From positions 1 to 38,245 of the IMG/VR virus record IMGVR_UViG_3300046753_000215: DNA of 38,245 nucleotides, one strand, 5' to 3'. The stretch is from a virus. This document shows, one piece after another, positions 10,360-28,206 of this stretch. Made by a program: the position numbers and the translations under genes. The stretch's first letter is position 1. Each line of letters opens with the position of its first letter. The notes beneath the pieces were generated by a model. That model was not told where the DNA came from and did not search any database. It worked only from the letters and a program-made list of their open reading frames with translations.

Positions 10360-10370
10360 TTGTAAATTAA
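10360..10370 (+). promoter_or_regulatory. TTGTAAATTAA intercistronic motif, copy B
   Basis: Exact copy lying between the stop at 10358 and the portal ATG at 10375, leaving only four bases (TACA) before the start codon. If it acted as a -10 element, the transcript would start near the AUG (leaderless); if it acts in translation, it is the immediate upstream region. Confidence 0.55.
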
Positions 10371-10374
10371 TACA

Positions 10375-11607
10375 ATGGGACTACTATCTAATATATCAGA
10401 ATTTTTTGCATCTAACACTTATGTGCAAGCTACAGAGCATTCTATTGCAACCAACGAGTTAGAGAACTCTATTGAAGACCTTAATGGTCGTTACAGATTA
10501 GGACATACTTTAGTAGGTGACTACATTAAGTTTGGTGTAAACGACGACTTCCCCGTTATCCTTGAGAAGATGTTACGCCAATCACCTGTGCATAGTGGTA
10601 TCTTAACCAAGAAAGCAAAGATGGTAGTTGGTAACGACATTGACTACTCTGATGAGTTTGCTAAAACTAACAAGGCTAAAGCAGAACTAAAAGCATTTGT
10701 AAACCACTGTGGTGGTAACAACAAAGGTCTGTACGAAGTATTGACTCACGCTGCATTCCAATACGAGCATAAGGGTGCGTTAGCATTTTATGTGCGTTGG
10801 AACAAAGGGCGTACAAAGATACTTGAGTTTAAGTCTTTAGACCCTAAAGGAGTGCGTGTAGCAGAGCCAAATGAGAAAGGTGAGGTAACACACTACATCG
10901 TTCGTAGAAGCTTCGGCTATGGCTCTAATTCTGTACAGCACAATGAGCCTCGTAAGATTAAGGCATTTAACAAGTTTGATAAGAGTGGTACTGAAGCGGT
11001 GCTTTATGTAGGTAACCCATATAGTGGTAACCCATATTATGGTGTACCCAGCTACATCTCTGCATTCCACTACATTGAATCTGACTTCAGCTTTGGTAAG
11101 CACATTAAGAACTCTGCCGAGAACGGCTTTACGCCTAAAGTATTAGCTACCTTCATTGGTAGAAATATGAGTGCAGAGCAGAAGCGTGAGGAATATAACA
11201 AGTTCAAGGAGTCCTTTACAGGCGCAGACGCAGATAACTTTATTGTCTCGTGGGTAAAGAAAGAAGAAGATGCTCCCGTTTTTAAACCACTTGATATATC
11301 CAATTTAGACAAGACCGTAGATGTCTTATCAAAACTTAATGATGCTAAAATACTCACAGCTCACAACGTTACTTCTCCTACTCTATTTGGTGTTATGGTT
11401 AGTGGTAAACTGGGAGGCACAGGTAACGAACTTGTTACAGCTTATCAAATATTTAGAGCGACTGAAACGCTACCTAATAGAGAGATTCTTTTAGACTCTG
11501 TAAATAGAATCTTTGCTACTGTGGGTTATGACCAGATGAACCTTGCTGTTGTTGAAGAGCCTATTAACTTGGAGAGCATCAAGGGTGCTAACACTGAAGA
11601 CGTATAA
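10375..11607 (+). CDS. Portal protein
   Basis: A 410-residue portal, the dodecameric ring at the DNA-entry vertex. Supporting segments include RQSPVHSGILTKKAKMVVGN near residue 65 (typical early portal core), FKSLDPKGVRVAEPNEKG, GNPYYGVPSYISAFHYIESD (about residue 220, the conserved central helix region), and SPTLFGVMVSGKLGGTGNEL near residue 340. The length fits short HK97/SPP1-type portals. It lies unusually far from the terminase, after the adhesins, but directly before a candidate connector. No fused domain is seen. Confidence 0.8.
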   Translation: MGLLSNISEFFASNTYVQATEHSIATNELENSIEDLNGRYRLGHTLVGDYIKFGVNDDFPVILEKMLRQSPVHSGILTKKAKMVVGNDIDYSDEFAKTNKAKAELKAFVNHCGGNNKGLYEVLTHAAFQYEHKGALAFYVRWNKGRTKILEFKSLDPKGVRVAEPNEKGEVTHYIVRRSFGYGSNSVQHNEPRKIKAFNKFDKSGTEAVLYVGNPYSGNPYYGVPSYISAFHYIESDFSFGKHIKNSAENGFTPKVLATFIGRNMSAEQKREEYNKFKESFTGADADNFIVSWVKKEEDAPVFKPLDISNLDKTVDVLSKLNDAKILTAHNVTSPTLFGVMVSGKLGGTGNELVTAYQIFRATETLPNREILLDSVNRIFATVGYDQMNLAVVEEPINLESIKGANTEDV

Positions 11608-15808: not shown

Positions 15809-16075
15809 TTATTTGGTAAGTTCTACTTCAAACTTATAAATTTTTTGTATACCCTTTGTTTCAATGACCATTCTACCGTTAGAAGGGTTAAGAAATATAT
15901 AGTTCTCGGAATTACCAGTGTAGTCCGTTACATCCACTTTGAACTCCTTACCATTGATTAGCATCTTGTTCCATTCTAAAACTTCAACCTCCTTTGCGGA
16001 GGCTATGTTAAACTTTAGGTAGGCACGAATCATCTCGCACCAACTCTTTCTATATGCTTCTGACCAACTTTTCAA
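15809..16075 (-). CDS. Small protein of unknown function (88 aa)
   Basis: Starts at a TTG (16075) that overlaps the helicase stop as TTGA, consistent with coupled translation; an ATG 42 bases later is the alternative. The 88 residues combine an aromatic N-terminal helix (SWSEAYRKSWCEMIRAYL) with a beta-like C-terminal half (FKVDVTDYTGNSENYIFLNP). Follows the helicase gene; no family recognised. Confidence 0.5.
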   Translation of the reverse strand: MKSWSEAYRKSWCEMIRAYLKFNIASAKEVEVLEWNKMLINGKEFKVDVTDYTGNSENYIFLNPSNGRMVIETKGIQKIYKFEVELTK

Positions 16076-17058
16076 AATTCTAATTCCTCTTGTGAAGGTG
16101 TAGGCAATGCTACTTCTTCTGGTTCGTAATCGGGGTTCTGATATGCGTACACAGGATTGCCCTGCTTATCAACCTCATAGTATCTATTCTTAACCTTGTC
16201 GTAGTACATTGTTATCTTTCCTAACCTACCTACGATTTTAGGTTTAGCCTTAACAACTGTAATCTCAACTTGATTAGGTTCATAAGGTACGCCATCTAAA
16301 TCCTCTAATCCAAATGGACAACGCCATATATTTATAACCATCATACCCTTACGGCTCCATTGCATACCACCTGCTATATCATTCATAGTAGGTTTATCTA
16401 TATATGCTATACCACTACGATATTTAGGTTGTTGGTGTTTAGTGTGTACGGTAAGTAGTGTGTGATAATTGTTATCCGCACTATGCTTTCTGACTTTTGT
16501 AAGCACTTGACCAATAGCAATGTCATCACGAACACCTACGCTTATATCTGTTTTAATCTCTGTAAACGGGTCTATGAGACAGCCCTGTATCTTAACCCCA
16601 AAATCTTCTTCTATGTTTGTTACACAGTTGTAGAAACCTTCTACGGTAAGGTCTTGCAGACCACTATCTATAATATAGAAGTGTTCATTTATAAACTCAA
16701 TAGCCCTTTGGCTCTCTTCATCTGTAGCCATAACCTTATCATTAACAAGGAACGGCTTACGCAGGTATACCCATAGGAACTCTGCGAATACTTCTGTTGG
16801 CGAACCTGTTTCTGGGGAGTATACAGCCCACTTCCAACCAGAGTATTGGGATAGGTTCATCATCATTTCAAATGCAAACTGCGACTTCCCTTGATGCGCT
16901 CCTGCATATATATAAGTGGTACTACCCAACTTCATTGAATACTTATCAAACAGAGAACTAAACCCTGTCCAAGCACCTTTTGTTACTCCGTTCTCGCGGA
17001 GTTCTGTTAGAGAATCTTTTAACTCTTCAGCCCTATAGATAAAATTTCTCGTTGTCAT
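16072..17058 (-). CDS. DnaB-type replicative helicase (RecA-like ATPase)
   Basis: A 328-residue protein with a RecA-type fold. Walker A is GAHQGKS (53-59), the VYSPETGS strand resembles DnaB motif 1a, and Walker B is CLIDPF (160-165), followed by a QVLTKVRKHSADN helix and LLTVHTKHQ, the DnaB H3-like segment. The N-terminal primase-interacting domain of full DnaB is missing, so the protein is short, as in phages with minimal helicases. It should unwind DNA at the phage fork. No phage primase or polymerase is present, so it probably recruits host enzymes. Confidence 0.75.
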   Translation of the reverse strand: MTTRNFIYRAEELKDSLTELRENGVTKGAWTGFSSLFDKYSMKLGSTTYIYAGAHQGKSQFAFEMMMNLSQYSGWKWAVYSPETGSPTEVFAEFLWVYLRKPFLVNDKVMATDEESQRAIEFINEHFYIIDSGLQDLTVEGFYNCVTNIEEDFGVKIQGCLIDPFTEIKTDISVGVRDDIAIGQVLTKVRKHSADNNYHTLLTVHTKHQQPKYRSGIAYIDKPTMNDIAGGMQWSRKGMMVINIWRCPFGLEDLDGVPYEPNQVEITVVKAKPKIVGRLGKITMYYDKVKNRYYEVDKQGNPVYAYQNPDYEPEEVALPTPSQEELEF

Positions 17059-19196: not shown

Positions 19197-19628
19197 TTAC
19201 TCTACGACCAGTTTGGAGAGGTGGTCTACTCTTTGTTTCATTCTACTTATCTCAATTTCCACATCTGATAGACGTTGTTCAACGCCATTGTCGCTGCTGT
19301 GGACTTGCTCTATCGCATTTGTCAAACGATTGTACATACCCTCATAGTCTGGATTTTTTTGAAGGTACTCGTTATGGTTTGCCGTGCAGTAGTTAGCTGC
19401 CATCTCTGCTGTAATCTTCAATACACTTGCGATGTTCTTCATCGTGTAATGTGAATCACGGAGGACTCTTGCTATCAACGCTCTGGTTCTCACTACGATA
19501 GGAAACCTACGACCAGTGTAGAAATGCTCTTTATCTACTCCTGTTACGTCTACTGCATTGAGTACCACCATCTTTTCAAAGTGGTTACAGTTCTCCAACC
19601 ATTGCGCTGTAAGGTCTGAATTGCTCAT
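19197..19628 (-). CDS. DnaA-domain-IV-like protein with coiled coil, degenerate copy
   Basis: A 143-residue paralogue of the protein at 21034-21558. Residues about 42-105 align by eye: RRFPIVVRTRALIARVLRDSH corresponds to the first helices of the DnaA C-terminal domain, TMKNIASVLKITAEMAANYC to its helix-turn-helix, then H...DYEGMYNRL. The DnaA signature GxDHxTVxHA is replaced by ITAEMAANYC, so box binding is probably lost or changed. A heptad-repeat coiled coil ends the protein (VEQRLSDVEIEISRMKQRVDHLSKL). The start at 19628 overlaps the exonuclease by 44 bases; an internal ATG at 19571 would avoid this. Confidence 0.5.
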   Translation of the reverse strand: MSNSDLTAQWLENCNHFEKMVVLNAVDVTGVDKEHFYTGRRFPIVVRTRALIARVLRDSHYTMKNIASVLKITAEMAANYCTANHNEYLQKNPDYEGMYNRLTNAIEQVHSSDNGVEQRLSDVEIEISRMKQRVDHLSKLVVE

Positions 19629-20343
19629 TTAAAAATCTTTTTTCGTAAACATTAATACTTGTATTCAACTCTACTTCTCCCCAGTGTAGGAAGTCATCAG
19701 AGGCTTTAAATATACCCACCTCATATGGGAATACCTTTTCCACTACGAGGAAATAGAAATCGTCCATTCCAAAGATAGTCTTGTAGAGATAGGCTTGTTG
19801 ATTGTACAGCATAAATCTCGCTGACTTCTTAAAATCCTCAAGTGATTTAGCGGTGGTCTTTAGGTCTACGATATAGTTCTTCTCGCCATCAAACACTATT
19901 GCATCAGCTTTACCTTTTACTGCAATCTCGTTTCCGCTTTCCGTTACAAATGTTTTTATACCTGCAACTTCGGGCTTGGCTTCTATGCCCATAATATCGT
20001 TTACCTCTGGAACTTTAAGCAGCTTATCGTACATACCATAGACTAAATCATAATCCTTTTCGGGCAGCACAAGTTTACCTTCGTGTTCCATCTTAAACTC
20101 TTTATAGGCGTTGCCTCTACGAGTTCCTTCCCATCTTACAGCTACTTCTTTATCCTCAAGGAATAGAGCGTGTAGTGCAGTACCTACATCAAAGAATGAA
20201 GTAGAAGGGTAGCTCCACTTACCTTGTTTCCAAAGGTGGAACTTTGTTGGTGATTGGCGCAGGAGTTTGAAGGCACTATTGGACATATAAGATTTGTCCG
20301 AGTAGTACGCTTCATCGTCCTTGAATCTTTCTAAATCAGTCAT
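19585..20343 (-). CDS. RecE/PDDEXK-type exodeoxyribonuclease (exonuclease VIII-like)
   Basis: A 252-residue nuclease. The N terminus MSNSAFKLLRQSPTKFHLW and FFDVGTALHALFLE (His of the RecB-like family near residue 58) are typical of the RecE/Cas4-like PDDEXK group. The catalytic core is GKADAIVFDGEK, then YIVDLKTT (acid and D-L-K), and the QQAYLYK motif follows. It would resect DNA ends 5'-3' to feed the adjacent annealing protein. Length fits phage exonuclease VIII-like proteins lacking the N-terminal part of E. coli RecE. Start coupled as TAATG. Confidence 0.8.
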   Translation of the reverse strand: MTDLERFKDDEAYYSDKSYMSNSAFKLLRQSPTKFHLWKQGKWSYPSTSFFDVGTALHALFLEDKEVAVRWEGTRRGNAYKEFKMEHEGKLVLPEKDYDLVYGMYDKLLKVPEVNDIMGIEAKPEVAGIKTFVTESGNEIAVKGKADAIVFDGEKNYIVDLKTTAKSLEDFKKSARFMLYNQQAYLYKTIFGMDDFYFLVVEKVFPYEVGIFKASDDFLHWGEVELNTSINVYEKRFLNEQFRPYSAMVGEL

Positions 20344-21033: not shown

Positions 21034-21558
21034 CTACCACGCAACACCAGAAATTTTTGTTTTTAATGCAGAAATCTCACTATTAACTTGCTTTGACTGC
21101 TTCTTTAGAGATTCATTCTCAAGGGTTAAGCGGTTGTTAGTGCTTATCAACTCTCTGTTTTGTCTTGCCAATTTCATAAGGCGTTCCCGTACAGCCTTGT
21201 TACGCTCCATAAACTCATCGTAGGTGTGTTCCTCCAGTAAGCTATAAGGCAGCATCGTCTTGGCTACGATATTGTCTATCTGATAGTACACAGATTTGTA
21301 GTCCCTATCAAATTTGTAATTCATCTCGTGTTGTTTACAAGCGTGGATTACTGTGGCGTGGTCTTTACCTAATACCGTTCCGATAGCATCAAGAGACATC
21401 GTAGAGTATTTACGCATCGCTACTAAAAAGCTATGGCGGTGTATGACATACTCACGCTTTCTTGATTTCAATGGTATCTCTTTATACTTTGTGATTTTAG
21501 CCCACACATCTGCGGCTAACTTCTTTTGCGACAGGTCTAAAAAATCTTTCTCTTTCAT
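21034..21558 (-). CDS. DnaA-domain-IV-like DNA-binding protein with coiled coil
   Basis: A 174-residue protein. Residues about 33-95 resemble the C-terminal DNA-binding domain of DnaA. The sequence VIHRHSFLVAMRKYSTMSLDAIG is followed by GKDHATVIHA (64-73), close to the DnaA signature GxDHTTVxHA that contacts DnaA boxes. There is no AAA+ ATPase domain. A coiled coil follows (ENESLKKQSKQVNSEISALKTKI), suggesting dimerisation. It may mark the phage origin or act as a regulator. AT-rich palindromic DNA lies directly upstream. Confidence 0.65.
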   Translation of the reverse strand: MKEKDFLDLSQKKLAADVWAKITKYKEIPLKSRKREYVIHRHSFLVAMRKYSTMSLDAIGTVLGKDHATVIHACKQHEMNYKFDRDYKSVYYQIDNIVAKTMLPYSLLEEHTYDEFMERNKAVRERLMKLARQNRELISTNNRLTLENESLKKQSKQVNSEISALKTKISGVAW

Positions 21559-21731
21559 AGTATACTTCTGTATAAATACCCTTATATCAGTAGGGTATAT
21601 TAGTATTCTTCTATTATATTTCTAATATAGAATATATCTTAAAGATATATTCTTATATATTACTATTATATTACTTCTAATAGATATATATTACTAATAT
21701 AAGTAATATATTACTACGGGTGTTTAGGGAA
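21559..21731. other. AT-rich palindromic intergenic region, candidate origin or operator
   Basis: 173 bases, almost all A/T, between two leftward genes. It holds a perfect 11-bp inverted repeat (21630-21640 / 21642-21652) and a 9-bp one, ATATATTAC (21686-21694) with GTAATATAT (21703-21711). The 13-mer AAGTAATATATTA (21701-21713) recurs at 26128-26140. A GGGTGTTTAGG at about 21718 resembles the iterons of 23497-23584. It lies just upstream of the DnaA-like gene, a natural site for an origin or autoregulation. No gene is seen. Confidence 0.45.
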
Positions 21732-23255: not shown

Positions 23256-23689
23256 ATCATTTTGGTTTTAGTGGTTGAACACTTCAAATGTAATGAACAT
23301 ATTTGTTAATATCCTAATTTATACAAAAGAAATACTGAAAAAACTTTTACATTAATTCTGGAAGCCCCAATTCCACAGGGATTTTCGTTACAGAAAAAGT
23401 CCCCAATTTTTTGACAGCTTCGCGTTTCCAAGTAAAACGAGTACCTTTTATCCGCCAAAGCACCCGTAACGGTTTGACGACCAAAATCGCCTCCGTGAGT
23501 ATTTAATACCAGTATTTTATACCTATGAATAGGTGTTTATACCTAAAATGAGTGTTTAATACTACGCTTTGAGTGTTTAAACTCAATTTGCCCAATTAAT
23601 GAGCAAAACCCTTGCACAATAGAAAAAGCCGCCATAAATTGCGAGTGCAAACGAGCGACAAACGCCCGTTATCATTAAAACCAAAAGCA
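23256..23689. other. Divergent intergenic control region (434 bases)
   Basis: No convincing gene on either strand (one 7-codon frame only). It separates the leftward replication unit from the rightward cassette. It holds five 14-bp repeats at 23497-23584 (separate entry) and a minus-strand TACATTTG matching the Bacteroidota -7 consensus TAnnTTTG at 23292-23285. The rest is unremarkable AT-rich DNA. The likely role is early promoters and/or an origin. Confidence 0.6.
23497..23584 (+). repeat. Five iteron-like 14-bp repeats
   Basis: Units start at 23497 (GAGTATTTAATACC), 23511 (AGTATTTTATACCT), 23531 (AGGTGTTTATACCT), 23550 (GAGTGTTTAATACT) and 23571 (GAGTGTTTAAACTC). Consensus is about GAGTGTTTAATACC, close to a palindrome; start-to-start spacing is 14, 20, 19 and 21 bases, so mostly two helical turns. 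Such arrays bind initiators (iterons) or regulators (operators). Related GTGTTTA words occur on the other strand at about 25906-25990. Confidence 0.65.
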
Positions 23690-23842
23690 ATGAAAAACAC
23701 AGTTTACCAAGTAATCGTTGGGGGGATAATTGATTTTGAATCCCTTGAATACCAAGAAGCTAAAAACTGGATTAAGTATTTAAAAACTATGGGTTACGAA
23801 TATAAGTTCACTACAAGAGGTAGAGACGAGTCCGAGTACTAA
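23690..23842 (+). CDS. Cassette gene 1, unknown (50 aa)
   Basis: ATG 23690 follows an A-rich leader; an in-frame TTG further upstream is less likely. The 50-residue product has KNTVYQVIVGG and EYQEAKNWIKYLKTMGY segments (a beta-alpha pattern) and an acidic end, GRDESEY. First gene of a rightward cassette with different codon style from the rest of the phage. No family recognised. Confidence 0.55.
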   Translation: MKNTVYQVIVGGIIDFESLEYQEAKNWIKYLKTMGYEYKFTTRGRDESEY

Positions 23843-23868
23843 AAACCGCACTAATAAAATAATAACCA

Positions 23869-23884
23869 GCCCCCGCAAGGGGGC
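23869..23884 (+). promoter_or_regulatory. GC stem-loop with GCAA tetraloop
   Basis: Perfect 6-bp stem GCCCCC (23869-23874) / GGGGGC (23879-23884) closing a GNRA tetraloop. It has no T run behind it and sits 16 bases before the next ATG, so it may modulate translation or mark mRNA processing between cassette genes 1 and 2. Confidence 0.5.
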
Positions 23885-23899
23885 ACAATACCTTAAACA

Positions 23900-24190
23900 A
23901 TGAAGTTTAACGAACTAAAATTTGCAACCCGTGATAACGGGAGCATACAGGCAAAAGAAAATTTTTATAACGGCTATTCTGTTAGTGTCGTAGCGGGACA
24001 ATTTATGTACAGTATACCGCGTGAGAATAACACAAGCCCCGATTTTTTTACCGCTTTTGAAGTGGCTGTATTCAACGAGGAAGGCGAGTTCTGCACGAGA
24101 AAATTTGCGGATATCAATGACGACGTTATCGGATATGCAGACCGCAAAGAAATAGAATTTTTAATGTGTTGCGTAGAAAATAAGTTATGA
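23900..24190 (+). CDS. Cassette gene 2, unknown (96 aa)
   Basis: A 96-residue protein with alternating beta-strands (KFATRDNGSIQ, YSVSVVAGQFMYSI, FTAFEVAVFNEEGEF) and a C-terminal IEFLMCCVENKL helix. No membrane segment. It resembles a compact alpha/beta domain of the sort found in small phage host-takeover proteins, but this is only a general impression. Its stop overlaps the next ATG (ATGA). Confidence 0.6.
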   Translation: MKFNELKFATRDNGSIQAKENFYNGYSVSVVAGQFMYSIPRENNTSPDFFTAFEVAVFNEEGEFCTRKFADINDDVIGYADRKEIEFLMCCVENKL

Positions 24191-24303
24191 AAAAAGCAAT
24201 TTATAAAACCCTTGAAAGGTTCAACGATGACAACAGCGGCACAATTGAGGCCCTTGTATTATTCTTTTTATTAACTGCAACGGCTGCGGCCCTTGTTAAA
24301 TAA
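24187..24303 (+). CDS. Cassette gene 3, tiny membrane protein (38 aa)
   Basis: ATG 24187 overlaps the previous stop. The 38 residues have a charged N terminus (KKAIYKTLERFNDDNSG) and one hydrophobic helix at the end (EALVLFFLLTATAAALVK). Probably an inner-membrane peptide; could target a host membrane protein. Tight coupling supports it. Confidence 0.55.
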   Translation: MKKAIYKTLERFNDDNSGTIEALVLFFLLTATAAALVK

Positions 24304-24312
24304 TTTAAACAA

Positions 24313-24723
24313 ATGGAAACAATAAAAGCACAACTTAAAGAAGCGGCACAAATTACAATAAACTGGAAGCACCGAATAGAAAAGGCGCACGGGTTCCAGA
24401 AGCAACTAACAGCCGTTTATATTGAAGAGGGTAAAATTCGCGAGGCTATAACTTTGCGAACCTATGCAAATTCCACATTTAAAACGTGGACCGCCTGCAT
24501 ATGGTTGCACTGTGGAACCTATGACGGGGCGAGCGGTAAGGCTACAGGATACGGATATTGTAAAGAGTCAGCCGCAGCCGCTGAAGCACTCGTAAACGTT
24601 GGATTTGCCTTTAATGAGCGAATAGGGGGCGGAATAGGGATGCACACGATACAAGACGCCCTAAAAGCAGCAGCAGAGAATCTAACAGGTAAGCCCTGCC
24701 AAATACTAACAGCCCACGCCTAA
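24313..24723 (+). CDS. Cassette gene 4, unknown (136 aa)
   Basis: A 136-residue protein: N-terminal amphipathic helix (KAQLKEAAQITINWKHRIEKA), then a beta-rich middle (ITLRTYANSTFKTWTACIWL), a Gly-rich HCGTYDGASGKATGYGYCKES with a pair of Cys, and a helical end (IQDALKAAAENLTGK). Not a known enzyme by motif. Largest-but-one gene of the cassette. Confidence 0.6.
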   Translation: METIKAQLKEAAQITINWKHRIEKAHGFQKQLTAVYIEEGKIREAITLRTYANSTFKTWTACIWLHCGTYDGASGKATGYGYCKESAAAAEALVNVGFAFNERIGGGIGMHTIQDALKAAAENLTGKPCQILTAHA

Positions 24724-24734
24724 AACTTATAAAA

Positions 24735-25013
24735 ATGAAACTAAAATCAAACTTTGACGGCAGCCTATATATTGAGACGAAATTAGGCCACGAACGCCCG
24801 CACGTTATACACTGCAGTGAATCGCTGTATGAAATCAAGCAAGACAGCGCAGCCCCTTATTTAGTCGCGGAGGAAGCGGGTAATTTTGCAAGGCTGCACC
24901 TGCTTACCAGTTGGAGCGAAGACGAAGCACTTCAAGACGTTGCAACCTATTTGCAAGAAGAGGAAGAAACAGAAGAGCCGCACTTAATCGCAGTATTTAA
25001 ACTAAACTTTTGA
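24735..25013 (+). CDS. Cassette gene 5, acidic protein (92 aa)
   Basis: A 92-residue strongly acidic protein. N-terminal half is mixed (KSNFDGSLYIETKLGHERPHV), the centre hydrophobic, and the C terminus is a Glu-rich stretch (QEEEETEEPHLIAVFKLNF). Acidic small phage proteins often mimic DNA or bind host factors; here this is only an inference. Follows gene 4 by 11 bases. Confidence 0.55.
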   Translation: MKLKSNFDGSLYIETKLGHERPHVIHCSESLYEIKQDSAAPYLVAEEAGNFARLHLLTSWSEDEALQDVATYLQEEEETEEPHLIAVFKLNF

Positions 25014-25017
25014 AACG

Positions 25018-25452
25018 ATGAAAAACAAAAAACAAATAACCCTAACCAATTTAAAAGAGGCGTATACAGGTAACACCTTCATTTATGGCCGTTTTGCTTT
25101 ACAAGCTTACCAAGACCTAAAAAGTAAGTATAACGAAACACCGCCCGAAGACTGGGAGCGGGTAAGTATTGAAGCCGTTCAAACTTTTGACCATTTGCGC
25201 AGCTTATTAACACGGGCCGAATATCTGGAAAGGCGGAGCGATATAAACAACGTGTTAGAGTCTGAAAACATAGATATCAAACTGGAACGCCACCAATACG
25301 CGCCAGAGATGAACAAAGCACATTTTTATTTAATAGTAAACAAGGCGCACCAAAAAGTAGGAATAATACCCGCGCCACAATGCACCACAATAGGCGAAGC
25401 AGTGGAAGCCCTCACAGGTACACAACTCAAAAATCTTTGTTTATATGTTTGA
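25018..25452 (+). CDS. Cassette gene 6, unknown (144 aa)
   Basis: A 144-residue mostly helical protein: KNKKQITLTNLKEAY, then a Tyr-rich YGRFALQAYQDLKSKYNE, EAVQTFDHLRSLLTRAEYLERR, and a C-terminal TIGEAVEALTG segment. No catalytic motif recognised. Overlaps the last cassette gene by eight bases. Confidence 0.6.
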   Translation: MKNKKQITLTNLKEAYTGNTFIYGRFALQAYQDLKSKYNETPPEDWERVSIEAVQTFDHLRSLLTRAEYLERRSDINNVLESENIDIKLERHQYAPEMNKAHFYLIVNKAHQKVGIIPAPQCTTIGEAVEALTGTQLKNLCLYV

Positions 25453-25630
25453 TGCACTCACAACGAAAGCGGCAAAGGTGCAAACGTCCCCAAAAGGGCG
25501 GCACTACATAAAAGCAGGTTCACGCGTGTATCTGCCAACGCTAAACAATTACAGCAGCTTAAAAGACGGAAAAACCTATATTTTCAACGAGGATAAAAGC
25601 AAAGTTAAACGGCTGCTCAACTGGATATAA
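25445..25630 (+). CDS. Cassette gene 7, unknown (61 aa)
   Basis: A 61-residue basic protein with a beta-pattern (KGRHYIKAGSRVYLPTLNNY, GKTYIFNEDKSKVKRLL). The start overlaps gene 6 by eight bases. Ends 23 bases before a perfect intrinsic terminator, so it is the final gene of the cassette transcript. Confidence 0.6.
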   Translation: MFDALTTKAAKVQTSPKGRHYIKAGSRVYLPTLNNYSSLKDGKTYIFNEDKSKVKRLLNWI

Positions 25631-25653
25631 AACCAGAACAGGAAATAAAATAG

Positions 25654-25679
25654 GGGTATCCATTGGATACCCTTTTTTT
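25654..25679 (+). terminator. Strong intrinsic terminator of the cassette
   Basis: Perfect 8-bp stem GGGTATCC (25654-25661) / GGATACCC (25665-25672), a 3-base loop, then seven T. Textbook rho-independent terminator on the plus strand, closing the seven-gene unit. Confidence 0.9.
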
Positions 25680-26079
25680 ATGCGCTGTAGTAATAAGGGG
25701 GAAAGTTAATAGGGTTATAAGGGCCAGAGGTTACGCCCCCCGCCAACCTTTACGCAATACAGGGCGCAAAAAGGGGTATTAAGGGGGTACGGAAGGACTG
25801 ACCGACGAGGAGAGGGGAAGTATATACTTACACCTAACTCCCTGCGGGGAAAATGGGGGGCGGGGAGTTGCTATATGCCAACATCTATTACATCCCCTCT
25901 AAAAGAATTAAACACTTTCTACTATACATTGGTATCACTTTATACAGAAACGCTCTTAAACATCTTCTAAACACCCTTAAAAGAGCTATAGGCATTAGCC
26001 ATTGCTGAAGGGAAATACATCTATGCCAATACATAGGGTAGCATTATATCCTATGGGTATATGTAGTAGTGTACTAATA

Positions 26080-26108
26080 TAGTAGACCTCTTTATTAGAG
26101 GTCTACTA
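26080..26108. repeat. Perfect 12-bp inverted repeat
   Basis: TAGTAGACCTCT (26080-26091), loop TTATT, AGAGGTCTACTA (26097-26108). Beyond a two-base offset, TATTAGTA flanks extend the symmetry. No T run follows, so it looks like a protein-binding or cruciform element rather than a terminator. Confidence 0.6.
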
Positions 26109-26195
26109 ATATATTAGTAATATATACAAGTAATATATTAGTATACTACGCGTGAGAAAATAATATGCTTAATGAATTGAAATATCATTCACTAA

Positions 26196-26206
26196 TTGTA
26201 TATTAG
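26196..26206 (+). promoter_or_regulatory. Degenerate TTGTATATTAG before the packaging operon
   Basis: Matches TTGTAAATTAA in 9 of 11 positions and sits 20 bases before the ATG at 26226, the first gene of the late run. A suitable place for a late promoter, but two mismatches make it a weak candidate. Confidence 0.3.
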
Positions 26207-26225
26207 TGTAAACGATAAGATTGTT

Positions 26226-26507
26226 ATGACACAGAAAGAGTTAATGTTAGCTTTAGCAGGTGGTGGTCTACCGAAGAATGATGTGAAGAAGGAGATGTTT
26301 AAGTTCTATAATTCTATGGTGGGCAAGAGCAAGTATTTTGGTAAGCAGGAGAATCCAAAGACTGCTTGCGGCAGTTGTATCCAGAGAGTGAAGACTTCTA
26401 TTTGGAAATGGTATCATAGTGATGAGAAAGCACCAACCTATAGTGAGTTGGAGTTTATGGGAAGGTTGGGCGCACATAACATACCCTTATACAAAGTTGT
26501 GAAGTAA
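26226..26507 (+). CDS. Protein upstream of terminase (93 aa)
   Basis: I start at ATG 26226 (MTQKELMLALAGGGLP) rather than the TTG 30 bases upstream. The 93-residue protein has a TACGSCIQRVKTSIWKWYH segment (CxxC followed by a basic aromatic helix), suggesting metal or nucleic-acid binding. Immediately followed by, and coupled to, the small terminase (TAATG), so a packaging-related role is plausible; family not identified. Confidence 0.6.
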   Translation: MTQKELMLALAGGGLPKNDVKKEMFKFYNSMVGKSKYFGKQENPKTACGSCIQRVKTSIWKWYHSDEKAPTYSELEFMGRLGAHNIPLYKVVK

Positions 26508-26956
26508 TGGCAAGTGTTAGAGACAAGAATGGTAATGTAGTTAGGGGGCTTGGTTCAGAGCTTACTGATATGCAGAGTGAGTTTATTGATAAGGTAAAGA
26601 AGTATGGCTTTGAGGAGGCTGCAAAGATAGCTACCGAGATGAAGTATACGAACTACTACCGAGACAGGAGAACTATCGGCACAGCGTTCTATAATGAGCT
26701 TATGAAGATTGTAGCATCCGAGGGTATGCAGATAGAGGCAGCCAAGGGTTCTAACATTAGGGCTTTGATTAATATCAGAGACAAAGCACTTCGTGCAGGA
26801 GATGATAAAGCTGCTATGGAGGCTATAAAGATTCTCAACGATATGCAAGGGTATAAAGCACCTACGAAGGTGCAGCAGACCAAGATAGATGTCAAGGCTA
26901 CTATTGACCTTACGGCGAGTAGTGAAGATGATGATATGGACTATATTGATATTTAA
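26507..26956 (+). CDS. terS: Terminase small subunit
   Basis: A 149-residue protein with an N-terminal DNA-binding-like helical domain (LTDMQSEFIDKVKKYGFEEAAK, helix-turn-helix around GFEEAAKIATEMKY) and a central helical oligomerisation region (NIRALINIRDKALRAGDDKAAMEAIKI). The C-terminal tail is acidic (SSEDDDMDYIDI). Coupled to the large subunit by TAATG. It would recognise the packaging site and deliver DNA to TerL. Naming relies on gene order plus this layout. Confidence 0.7.
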   Translation: MASVRDKNGNVVRGLGSELTDMQSEFIDKVKKYGFEEAAKIATEMKYTNYYRDRRTIGTAFYNELMKIVASEGMQIEAAKGSNIRALINIRDKALRAGDDKAAMEAIKILNDMQGYKAPTKVQQTKIDVKATIDLTASSEDDDMDYIDI

Positions 26957-28206
26957 TGGAGATTAAGCTATACAACCCTACACAACCTCAAAAGGACTTC
27001 TTAAACATCATCTATGAGGATAAGCCTTTTATTACATTAGCGGCTATGGGTAGGCAGACAGGTAAGACCTATGCGATGATGAACGATGCTGTAATGCGGG
27101 CATTGAATAACAATAAGCATAGGATGTTCTGGGTATCGCCTATACAGGACCAAGCCAATAAGGTGATGAAGGACATAGAGAGTATGTTTAGCAACCACCA
27201 AGAGTTGTTTAGTCAGATTATAACAAGGTTTGATAGGAAGCACAATGAGATATACTTCTACAACGGCAGTTTTATTAAGTTCCGCTCCTCTGAAGCGGGG
27301 GATAACCTTCGTGGTGCTACATTAGATTTTATCTATATTGATGAGGGTGCTTTTATCAAAGAGGCATTTATCAATGAGGTGTTACTGCCTATGGTTACAA
27401 GGACTAACGGTAGGGTAGTAATGTCTTCTACTTTTAACGGTAAGAACTGGTATTGGGACTGGTATCAGAGGGGATTGCAGGAAGAGGACTGGGGGCAGAT
27501 AAAGAGCATCAAAAGAACATACCTTGACTTAAATGACCAAAAGGTGGAGGAGACTGTATTAGGGATTAGGAAGTCTATGACTAAAGCACAGTTTGACCAA
27601 GAGTTTCTATGTAGACCCGTGAGTGCTGATGCGTTATTCTCCAATATTGAGGAAGCTGTTGTTAAAGAAGTAACAGAGCAGTACGATAGGCTGTATATCG
27701 GAATGGATATTGGTGTGGCGCAGGATTATACTGTGCTTACTGCGATGACTCAAGACTACGAGGTGATAGATGTTGATAGGTTCAACTTCAAGGAACAGGG
27801 TATGGACTCTACGGAGTTTAAACAACGTATAAAGGACTTTTACCTTAAACACTTTGATAGCCTCGCAGCAGCATACTTTGAAGTCAATAACAACGATTTA
27901 CTCTTTGATGAGATTACGGATGACGATAGGATGTATAAACTTATACCCTTTCAGACCACAAGTAAGAGTAAGCCAGAGATTATAAGGAATTTAATTAAGC
28001 TGTTTGAGGATGGTAAGATTAAAATACCAGAATACGATGTATTGGTAAAAGAATTGTACGATTACAAGAGTAAAAGAAACCCAATAACAGGAAACTTACA
28101 GTTTTCTAATACCGATGGCAAGCACGATGACTGTGTAATGAGTTTAGCTATTGCCGCTTATTGCACGACAGAAGAGCAGGACGGAGGTATAACAATGTTT
28201 TTGTAA
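26956..28206 (+). CDS. terL: Terminase large subunit
   Basis: A 416-residue packaging motor. Walker A is GRQTGKT (32-38), with Arg in the classical-terminase position. Walker B, FIYIDEG, lies near residue 126-132, with a coupling MSSTF stretch after it. The C-terminal RNase H-fold nuclease shows MDIGVAQDYT (about 248-257) and KHDDCVMSLAIA (about 389-400), giving the conserved Asp residues. It pumps phage DNA into proheads and cuts it. Length is normal for the family. Confidence 0.95.
   Translation: MEIKLYNPTQPQKDFLNIIYEDKPFITLAAMGRQTGKTYAMMNDAVMRALNNNKHRMFWVSPIQDQANKVMKDIESMFSNHQELFSQIITRFDRKHNEIYFYNGSFIKFRSSEAGDNLRGATLDFIYIDEGAFIKEAFINEVLLPMVTRTNGRVVMSSTFNGKNWYWDWYQRGLQEEDWGQIKSIKRTYLDLNDQKVEETVLGIRKSMTKAQFDQEFLCRPVSADALFSNIEEAVVKEVTEQYDRLYIGMDIGVAQDYTVLTAMTQDYEVIDVDRFNFKEQGMDSTEFKQRIKDFYLKHFDSLAAAYFEVNNNDLLFDEITDDDRMYKLIPFQTTSKSKPEIIRNLIKLFEDGKIKIPEYDVLVKELYDYKSKRNPITGNLQFSNTDGKHDDCVMSLAIAAYCTTEEQDGGITMFL

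Follow-up and report, generated by a model that had tools for sequence, protein, structure and literature searches.

Here, we ask what occupies the longest intergenic stretch of an uncultured phage genome, and why part of it recurs about 4.4 kb away. The window analyzed is the whole of one virus record (G000, 38,245 nt); its first 120 bases are the same as its last 120, and the map is therefore circular. The first-pass annotation had placed a large gene-free region ahead of position 26226, and the region is indeed gene-free, its true extent being 25631-26225 (595 nt), the longest intergenic stretch in the ORF list. This gap (gap 1) is bounded by an ORF at 25445-25630 on the left and an ATG at 26226 on the right, and it sits between an intrinsic terminator and the terminase operon (table 1). 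For comparison, a search of IMG/VR contigs with the terminase large subunit (TerL) gave 135 relatives; the best 80 (68-99% identity) were retained.

Table 1. Coordinates of the features discussed in the text, numbered along the window.
Feature	Position	Strand	Evidence
Helicase-like replication protein	16072..17058	-	phrog_239 primase/helicase 6.8e-18
DnaAC2, second DnaA-domain-IV protein with C-terminal helix (predicted)	19197..19628	-	alignment and fold
RecE/exonuclease VIII-like nuclease, same operon	19585..20343	-	phrog_412 8.4e-38
DnaAC1, DnaA domain IV and 61-residue C-terminal helix, candidate binder	21034..21558	-	PF08299 2.3e-12
Gap-2 array, gap-1 words, upstream of DnaAC1	21596..21716	.	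16 shared 11-mer positions
Gap-2 central hairpin, AGAATATATCT tta AGATATATTCT	21629..21653	-	
13-mer AAGTAATATATTA, copy 2	21701..21713	+	exact match
Intrinsic terminator, closes upstream early operon	25652..25674	+	10-pair stem and T-run
G/C-run-rich, fast-changing spacer	25675..25798	.	identity comparison with relatives
E2, two boxes TGACCG ... GCGGGG, candidate terminase (pac/cos-type) site	25799..25849	+	conservation and homology step
E4, gap-1 array, palindromic words (ACTAATATATTAGT type) around central hairpin	26066..26149	.	
Gap-1 central hairpin, TAGTAGACCTCT ttatt AGAGGTCTACTA	26080..26108	+	shuffle score
13-mer AAGTAATATATTA, copy 1	26128..26140	+	exact match
E5, ATTCACTAATTGTATATT, copy of late-gene motif TTGTAWATT	26187..26204	+	
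Conserved 93-aa ORF, packaging operon gene 1, no family match	26226..26507	+	
149-aa protein, terminase small subunit position	26507..26956	+	position and conservation only
Terminase large subunit (TerL)	26956..28206	+	PF03237 3.4e-20, phrog_2 1.8e-45
TTGTAWATT copies	1427, 2118, 10360, 26196, 28911, 36191, 38028	+	pattern match

The G-run-rich DNA reported earlier is directly visible at about 25684-25875. Conservation in relatives, which had been put forward as a check of the whole region, holds for one part of it: identity to four close relatives (L007, L008, L010, and L037) is 96-98% for 25879-26225 but only 81-89% for the GC-rich 5′ part (25676-25878), and between more distant pairs the GC-rich spacer is mostly unalignable. 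Four-fold sites of the next two genes fall below the identity of the 3′ part (e.g. 67/81 in L008, 73/82 in L010). The terminator keeps its position in the A1 relatives, with a different stem in some. A hidden gene is not supported: the sole ORF of at least 50 aa wholly inside the gap (51 aa, 25853-26008) is kept in close relatives, where the DNA is near-identical, and it lacks the ATG in L037 and L010, lacks the ATG and two residues in L047 (61%), and carries a stop in L023. A known structured RNA was also rejected, as no Rfam family reaches the gathering score in the window; a 601-nt single strand nevertheless folds better than 20 of 20 shuffles. Downstream, the same two ORFs lie between the gap and TerL in relatives whose contigs extend far enough, the 149-aa product having no PHROG match and no Pfam match over the cut-off. 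Upstream, divergent early operons are separated by a 356-nt gap (23256-23611) in which TTTATACC and GTGTTTA words can be seen by eye to repeat, probably a divergent early promoter region. The early plus-strand ORFs that follow (23612-25630) have no match in five of seven compared records, with G003 keeping one and G001 four of the six; the segment may be an exchange region ending at E2.

What, then, does the 3′ part contain? The 13-mer AAGTAATATATTA had been noted as common to gap 1 and to the AT-rich gap near 21.7 kb (gap 2), and a search of both strands finds it at these two sites and nowhere else. It belongs to a set of words that in the window are perfect palindromes of 14-16 nt, and the gap-2 array is by far the largest cluster of gap-1 words outside gap 1. 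Both segments are rich in A and T (20% GC in gap 2; A or T at 184 of the 260 nt preceding the 93-aa ORF), and chance matches are commoner for AT-rich words; the arrays could thus be AT-rich intergenic DNA of no special function, with short words shared by composition or recent duplication. In line with that reading, the maximum 11-mer count among 1000 simulated segment pairs, 16, equals the observed 16. Against it, the observed counts were reached in 1-3 of 1000 simulated pairs; for 13-mers common to both segments, 6 positions were observed against a simulated mean of 0.18, and three pairs in 1000 reached 6. Word sharing between the gaps is not due to chance.

The pairing recurs beyond the window. 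Each of 11 genomes (the window and ten long contigs, picked for length from 20 records) was searched with the 11-mers of the 260 nt that precede its 93-aa ORF, outside that segment, and in 10 of these the top cluster lies upstream of a DnaA_C-domain gene. The cluster is clear in eight (positions: window 16, G001 16, G013 17, G003 15, G008 13, G010 13, G006 12, and G014 11); G005 (4) and G011 (3, a count equalled at two other places) have weak clusters; in G016 the top cluster is not upstream of such a gene. The array precedes the DnaA_C domain by about 650 nt in G005, G006, G011, and G013, and by 1603 nt in G014. The 60 windows richest in A and T in each genome served as control starting points for an identical search: nothing exceeded 6 outside gap 2 in the window, G003, G008, and G010; other windows reached 9-10 in G006 and G013; other repeats outscored gap 1 in G001, G011, G014, and G016; and in G005 the gap was not separated from the controls. 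G006 also holds a further cluster of gap-1 words (9 positions) at 27258-27310 in TerL orientation.

Cross-matching of 10-mers among 18 genomes, relatives not being independent, showed that words match within a genome and within a clade, and hardly between clades. With one genome per word type, own-pair scores were 25 (G000), 24 (G003), 35 (G007), 21 (G008), 21 (G013), and 26 (G024), and none of the 30 cross pairs among these six, which were chosen after the matrix was seen, scored above 10. Within the large TATTATAATA clade words are not genome-specific, and low own pairs occur (G012 11, G005 9, G011 8, G023 8, and G014 2, the last because its array sits farther upstream). Thus, the words at the two sites change together between viruses, and this is our central result. 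That other clades show this pairing again, built on different words, and that the 3′ part of gap 1 is more conserved than the four-fold sites of the next two genes, both argue against DNA of no special function; simulation and cross-match largely refute this reading, which we consider very improbable. The joint change of both word sets suggests instead that one protein uses both sites, either for DNA copying or for a switch to packaging. The earlier proposal of paired control or replication sites is supported as to its kind (the same genome-specific palindromic words around a hairpin, recurring in relatives); replication, as the function of the pair, is plausible, one site being immediately upstream of a DnaA-domain-IV gene in an operon with a RecE-like exonuclease and a helicase-like protein.

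The hairpin is the second feature common to both arrays. The perfect 12-bp inverted repeat described at first reading has arms at 26080-26091 and 26097-26108 around a 5-nt loop, and its score was reached by none of 40 dinucleotide-model shuffles of the 260 nt. In the window and its relatives, a hairpin lies among the words near the same place, with a variable stem: TAGTAGACCTCT, AGAGTATACCCT, CTATAGATACCC, TATAATAAACTTTACT, and others in gap 1, and AGAATATATCT, AAGAGTCCCC, ATAGAAACCCT, and others in gap 2; the two stems of one genome can be wholly unlike (window, G010). Once identical upstream sequences were removed, the best hairpin was reached by at most one of 40 shuffles in 49 of 53 gap-1 rows, L014 and L082 being weaker and L018 and L019 having none by the shuffle rule. 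In nine of the 49 (L013, L015, L034, L043, L044, L049, L050, L051, and L053) the best hairpin is a word palindrome, not the central one; the same applies to gap 2 of G003, G005, G007, and G024, and gap 2 of G014 has none. With respect to the genes that follow, the loops keep one direction: gap 1 has TTATT and ATGGG, gap 2 has TTA and TTTAG, and none of the reverse complements occurs in the tally. An operator or leader role therefore stays a strong rival. A repressor or activator would, on this account, bind the words before the early replication and late packaging operons and set an early-late switch, with no origin involved. Both arrays do precede operons, perfect palindromes of this length are as expected for dimer operators, and a late-gene motif lies at the end of gap 1; yet the DnaA-type proteins and the free-stem hairpins are left unexplained, and no regulator was identified. 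We take an operator pair to be possible, if rather doubtful.

A reading that includes the DnaA-type proteins has two candidate binders to consider. DnaAC1 (174 aa) matches DnaA by sequence (1j1v, 2.2e-4), and its model (pLDDT 85), which places the 61-residue helix behind the domain, has DnaA structures as top fold matches, the best being again 1j1v (Foldseek E 0.016, probability 1.00). The profile match is limited to the C-terminal part, and AAA+ ATPase domain III is lacking; DnaAC1 is therefore a DnaA-domain protein, not a DnaA. DnaAC2 was missed by Pfam, PHROG, and NCBIfam searches of the window protein, aligns with the PF08299 matches of relatives, and gives a model (pLDDT 78) for which the DnaA DNA-binding domain 3pvp ranks first (Foldseek E 0.014, probability 1.00), with a TM of 0.80 by target length and 9% identity. 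The models support a DnaA domain IV fold for the two proteins, for DnaAC2 on its fold only, although both Foldseek E-values exceed 0.001. Compared with bacterial DnaA and oriC, the DNA-binding domain fold and the motif DHATVIHA (in DnaAC1) are points of likeness; on the other hand, a long C-terminal helix is found instead of the AAA+ part, and the gaps carry no DnaA boxes. A classical DnaA-box origin was accordingly rejected, TTWTNCACA occurring 4 times in the window (5.0 expected) and in neither gap. PF08299 was found in 18 of 23 records searched (eight over the curated cut-off), twice in 14 of the 18 and about 1.9 kb apart where both were placed; five records, including G016, gave no match.

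Downstream of DnaAC1, on the same strand, are encoded the RecE-like nuclease and the helicase-like protein; for the latter the best match is phrog_5482 (unknown, 6.8e-37), and a search by sequence gave no solved relative. By its gene content the operon, of which DnaAC1 is the first gene, looks like a replication and recombination operon, which makes the DnaA-like proteins natural candidates for binding the words. Neither is upheld as a proven binder by L047/G020, where the gap-1 words are of the window type and DnaAC1 is nearer to that of G003 (49%) than to that of the window (35%); DnaAC2 has 29% identity to the window protein and is, by eye, very like that of G003. Thus, neither DnaA-like protein tracks the gap-1 words there. 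Gap 2 of L047/G020 matches both word types (window words 21, G003 words 21, own words 31), which softens this objection and does not remove it. Cumulative GC skew reaches its minimum at 23.0-23.5 kb, remains low as far as 26.0 kb and then rises, a broad profile confounded by gene strand.

The explanation that we tentatively favor, at close to an even chance, is that both arrays are bound by one phage initiator or regulator in an arrangement like that of oriL and oriR in phage SPP1. According to the sources cited here, oriL lies in the SPP1 initiator gene and oriR in the late region, both have a similar make-up of repeats and AT-rich DNA and are bound by gp38 (G38P), gp38 bound to oriR is proposed to arrest forks and so set off the formation of concatemers, and this two-site link of replication to packaging has been worked out in detail (PMC6316719, PMC3485210). 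By analogy, the palindromic words of the two arrays would be recognized by one DNA-binding protein of the phage, most probably DnaAC1 or DnaAC2 in dimeric form. Bound at gap 2, this protein would initiate replication and control the operon; bound at gap 1, it would create a second origin or a fork barrier, turning replication toward concatemers, next to the late-gene motif and to E2, where the terminase may act. As part of this explanation, and with the same reserve, gap 1 would be a composite control region heading the packaging and late operon. Likenesses to the SPP1 features covered by those sources are two similar sites with repeats and AT-rich DNA, one at the initiator gene and the other intergenic in the late region, exonuclease and recombination genes, and, as the analogy has it, concatemers that are then packaged. 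The differences are also considerable: the SPP1 sites, as described there, have direct repeats, lie 12-13 kb apart, and include an oriL inside the initiator gene, whereas the present arrays consist of palindromic words around a hairpin, lie about 4.4 kb apart, and stand upstream of the gene, and the candidate binder is, unlike gp38, a DnaA-domain-IV protein. We suggest that the arrays may work like the SPP1 system, without filing them as a member of it. The analysis shows the matched arrays, their joint change, the hairpins with unlike stems, and E2 with its spacing; the binder and its dimerization, origin activity, fork arrest, and cleavage belong to the proposal.

Packaging brings in E2, a second conserved element, which lies between the terminator and the gap-1 array. 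Its boxes lie 46 nt apart (start to start) in the window and 44-48 nt apart in 34 distinct rows, with a free spacer; the full conservation of TGACCG in the information table is there by construction, rows having been picked by TGACCG. Among 50 loci with at least 560 nt upstream, 38 have the strict form and 45 a relaxed form (GGGG 42-56 nt after TGACCG). The strict form adjoins the terminase genes and occurs once in seven of 11 genomes, never twice, and is absent in four. Homology between relatives begins at E2 in nine of the 15 pairs that could be compared (22 were listed); in L069 and L074, for example, likeness is 31% over the 200 nt upstream and 90-97% downstream. The step is weaker in four pairs, lies 200-400 nt farther upstream in L026/L031, and is lacking in L032/L040. 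In G014 (L072), an exact 345-bp direct terminal repeat, which holds a 66-aa ORF, has its right end inside E2. Such a repeat is longer than the k-mer overlaps of common assemblers.

These properties, namely a place upstream of the terminase genes, a strict form never seen twice, nearly fixed box spacing around a free spacer, the homology step and the G014 repeat, together with the fact that 37 contigs among the best 80 of 135 relatives end within 2 kb upstream of TerL, could also mean that the gap in its entirety serves chiefly as a pac or cos region, E2 being the cleavage or recognition site and the arrays accessory binding sites. However, the twin array lies 4.4 kb away with no packaging gene beside it, even the relaxed E2 is missing in five of the 50 loci, the window itself assembled as a circle, and contig starts near E2 have no common position. 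On this last ground a cos site was rejected from contig ends: starts upstream of E2 fall at about -315, -180, -139, -104, -101, -91, and -37 nt from TGACCG, and L011, L019, L033, L039, L062, L080, and L012 start just downstream. No pile-up of contig ends at E2 appeared in searches with DnaAC1 (seven loci) or with ORF 25445-25630 (six loci), and the G014 66-aa ORF beside E2 retrieved two loci, both ends of G014 itself. When the ends of six more contigs were compared, a terminal overlap of 135 nt turned up in G009 and a repeat of 127 nt close to the ends of G002, neither of them near E2, and the other four had no repeat at their ends; an exact search with the G-rich pattern found only three contigs. 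We consider a gap devoted mainly to packaging quite improbable. The packaging start that the first-pass annotation had offered as an alternative fares differently by site: it does not fall on the shared 13-mer, and other contig starts are scattered, but given the G014 repeat it is possible for E2 as a separate element. That E2 is the terminase site is, from comparison of the relatives, conceivable, the balance being somewhat against it. In SPP1, the cited account has the pac region overlapping late promoters and gene 1, the small-subunit gene (PMC6316719); a candidate recognition region beside the small-subunit gene and late promoters is a likeness to what is described there, whereas E2 stops about 375 nt short of the first operon ORF and 660 nt short of the ORF in small-subunit position.

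Taken to its furthest, the SPP1-like reading would have an uncultured, probably Flavobacteriia-infecting lineage couple replication to packaging through two ATPase-less DnaA-domain-IV proteins, maybe dimers through their C-terminal helices, that bind co-drifting palindrome-hairpin arrays at the initiator and terminase operons, the terminase-side array lying beside a two-box terminase site. In this full form we hold it to be unlikely. If it were true, fork arrest, concatemer formation, late transcription, and the start of packaging would all be governed from one 600-bp region. Apart from that full form, the family suggests that the DnaA DNA-binding domain can be used without its ATPase. It amounts to a set of natural variants in which two distant arrays co-change, offering specificity pairs for binding tests, and the candidate terminase site is visible only by comparison.

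Cultured relatives were sought in several ways, and none was found. The first 25 kb had no megablast match in phage records, TerL matches were all below 60% (best-ranked 26.5%), and the 93-aa ORF had no match. The isolates P12024S and FCL-2 were rejected as relatives, having another gene order, no E2, and TTGTAWATT 2 times on the plus and 5 times on the minus strand in each. Among host genome contigs, TerL relatives reach only 22-30%, and none of the papers listed in our literature searches dealt with these phages or described a phage protein with DnaA domain IV together with paired arrays. Matches to the helicase-like protein occur in 104 phage records, chiefly from phages of Flavobacterium (79) and Riemerella (14), those listed being at 28%, and the protein encoded at 10375-11607 is similar to a portal protein, that of Nonlabens phage P12024S (23%). 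From these two matches we infer that the host is flavobacterial.

The last element of gap 1 is E5, whose copy of the late-gene motif reads TTGTATATT. TTGTAWATT occurs seven times on the plus and once on the minus strand of the window, where 60 simulated sequences predict 0.7 and 1.0, and 74 times on the late strand against 10 on the other over 11 genomes. In these phages it probably serves as a late promoter or as a signal in the translation leader. Flavobacterial sigma-A promoters, in the cited description, have a -7 box TAnnTTTG (PMC9723704). In several distant relatives (e.g. L031, L040, and L053) E5 is TTGTATATTTG, which contains TAnnTTTG; in the window, by contrast, E5 is TTGTATATTAG, and it is TTGTAWATT that is the shared phage motif. 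Two further copies, at 10360 and 36191, stand exactly 15 nt before an ATG.
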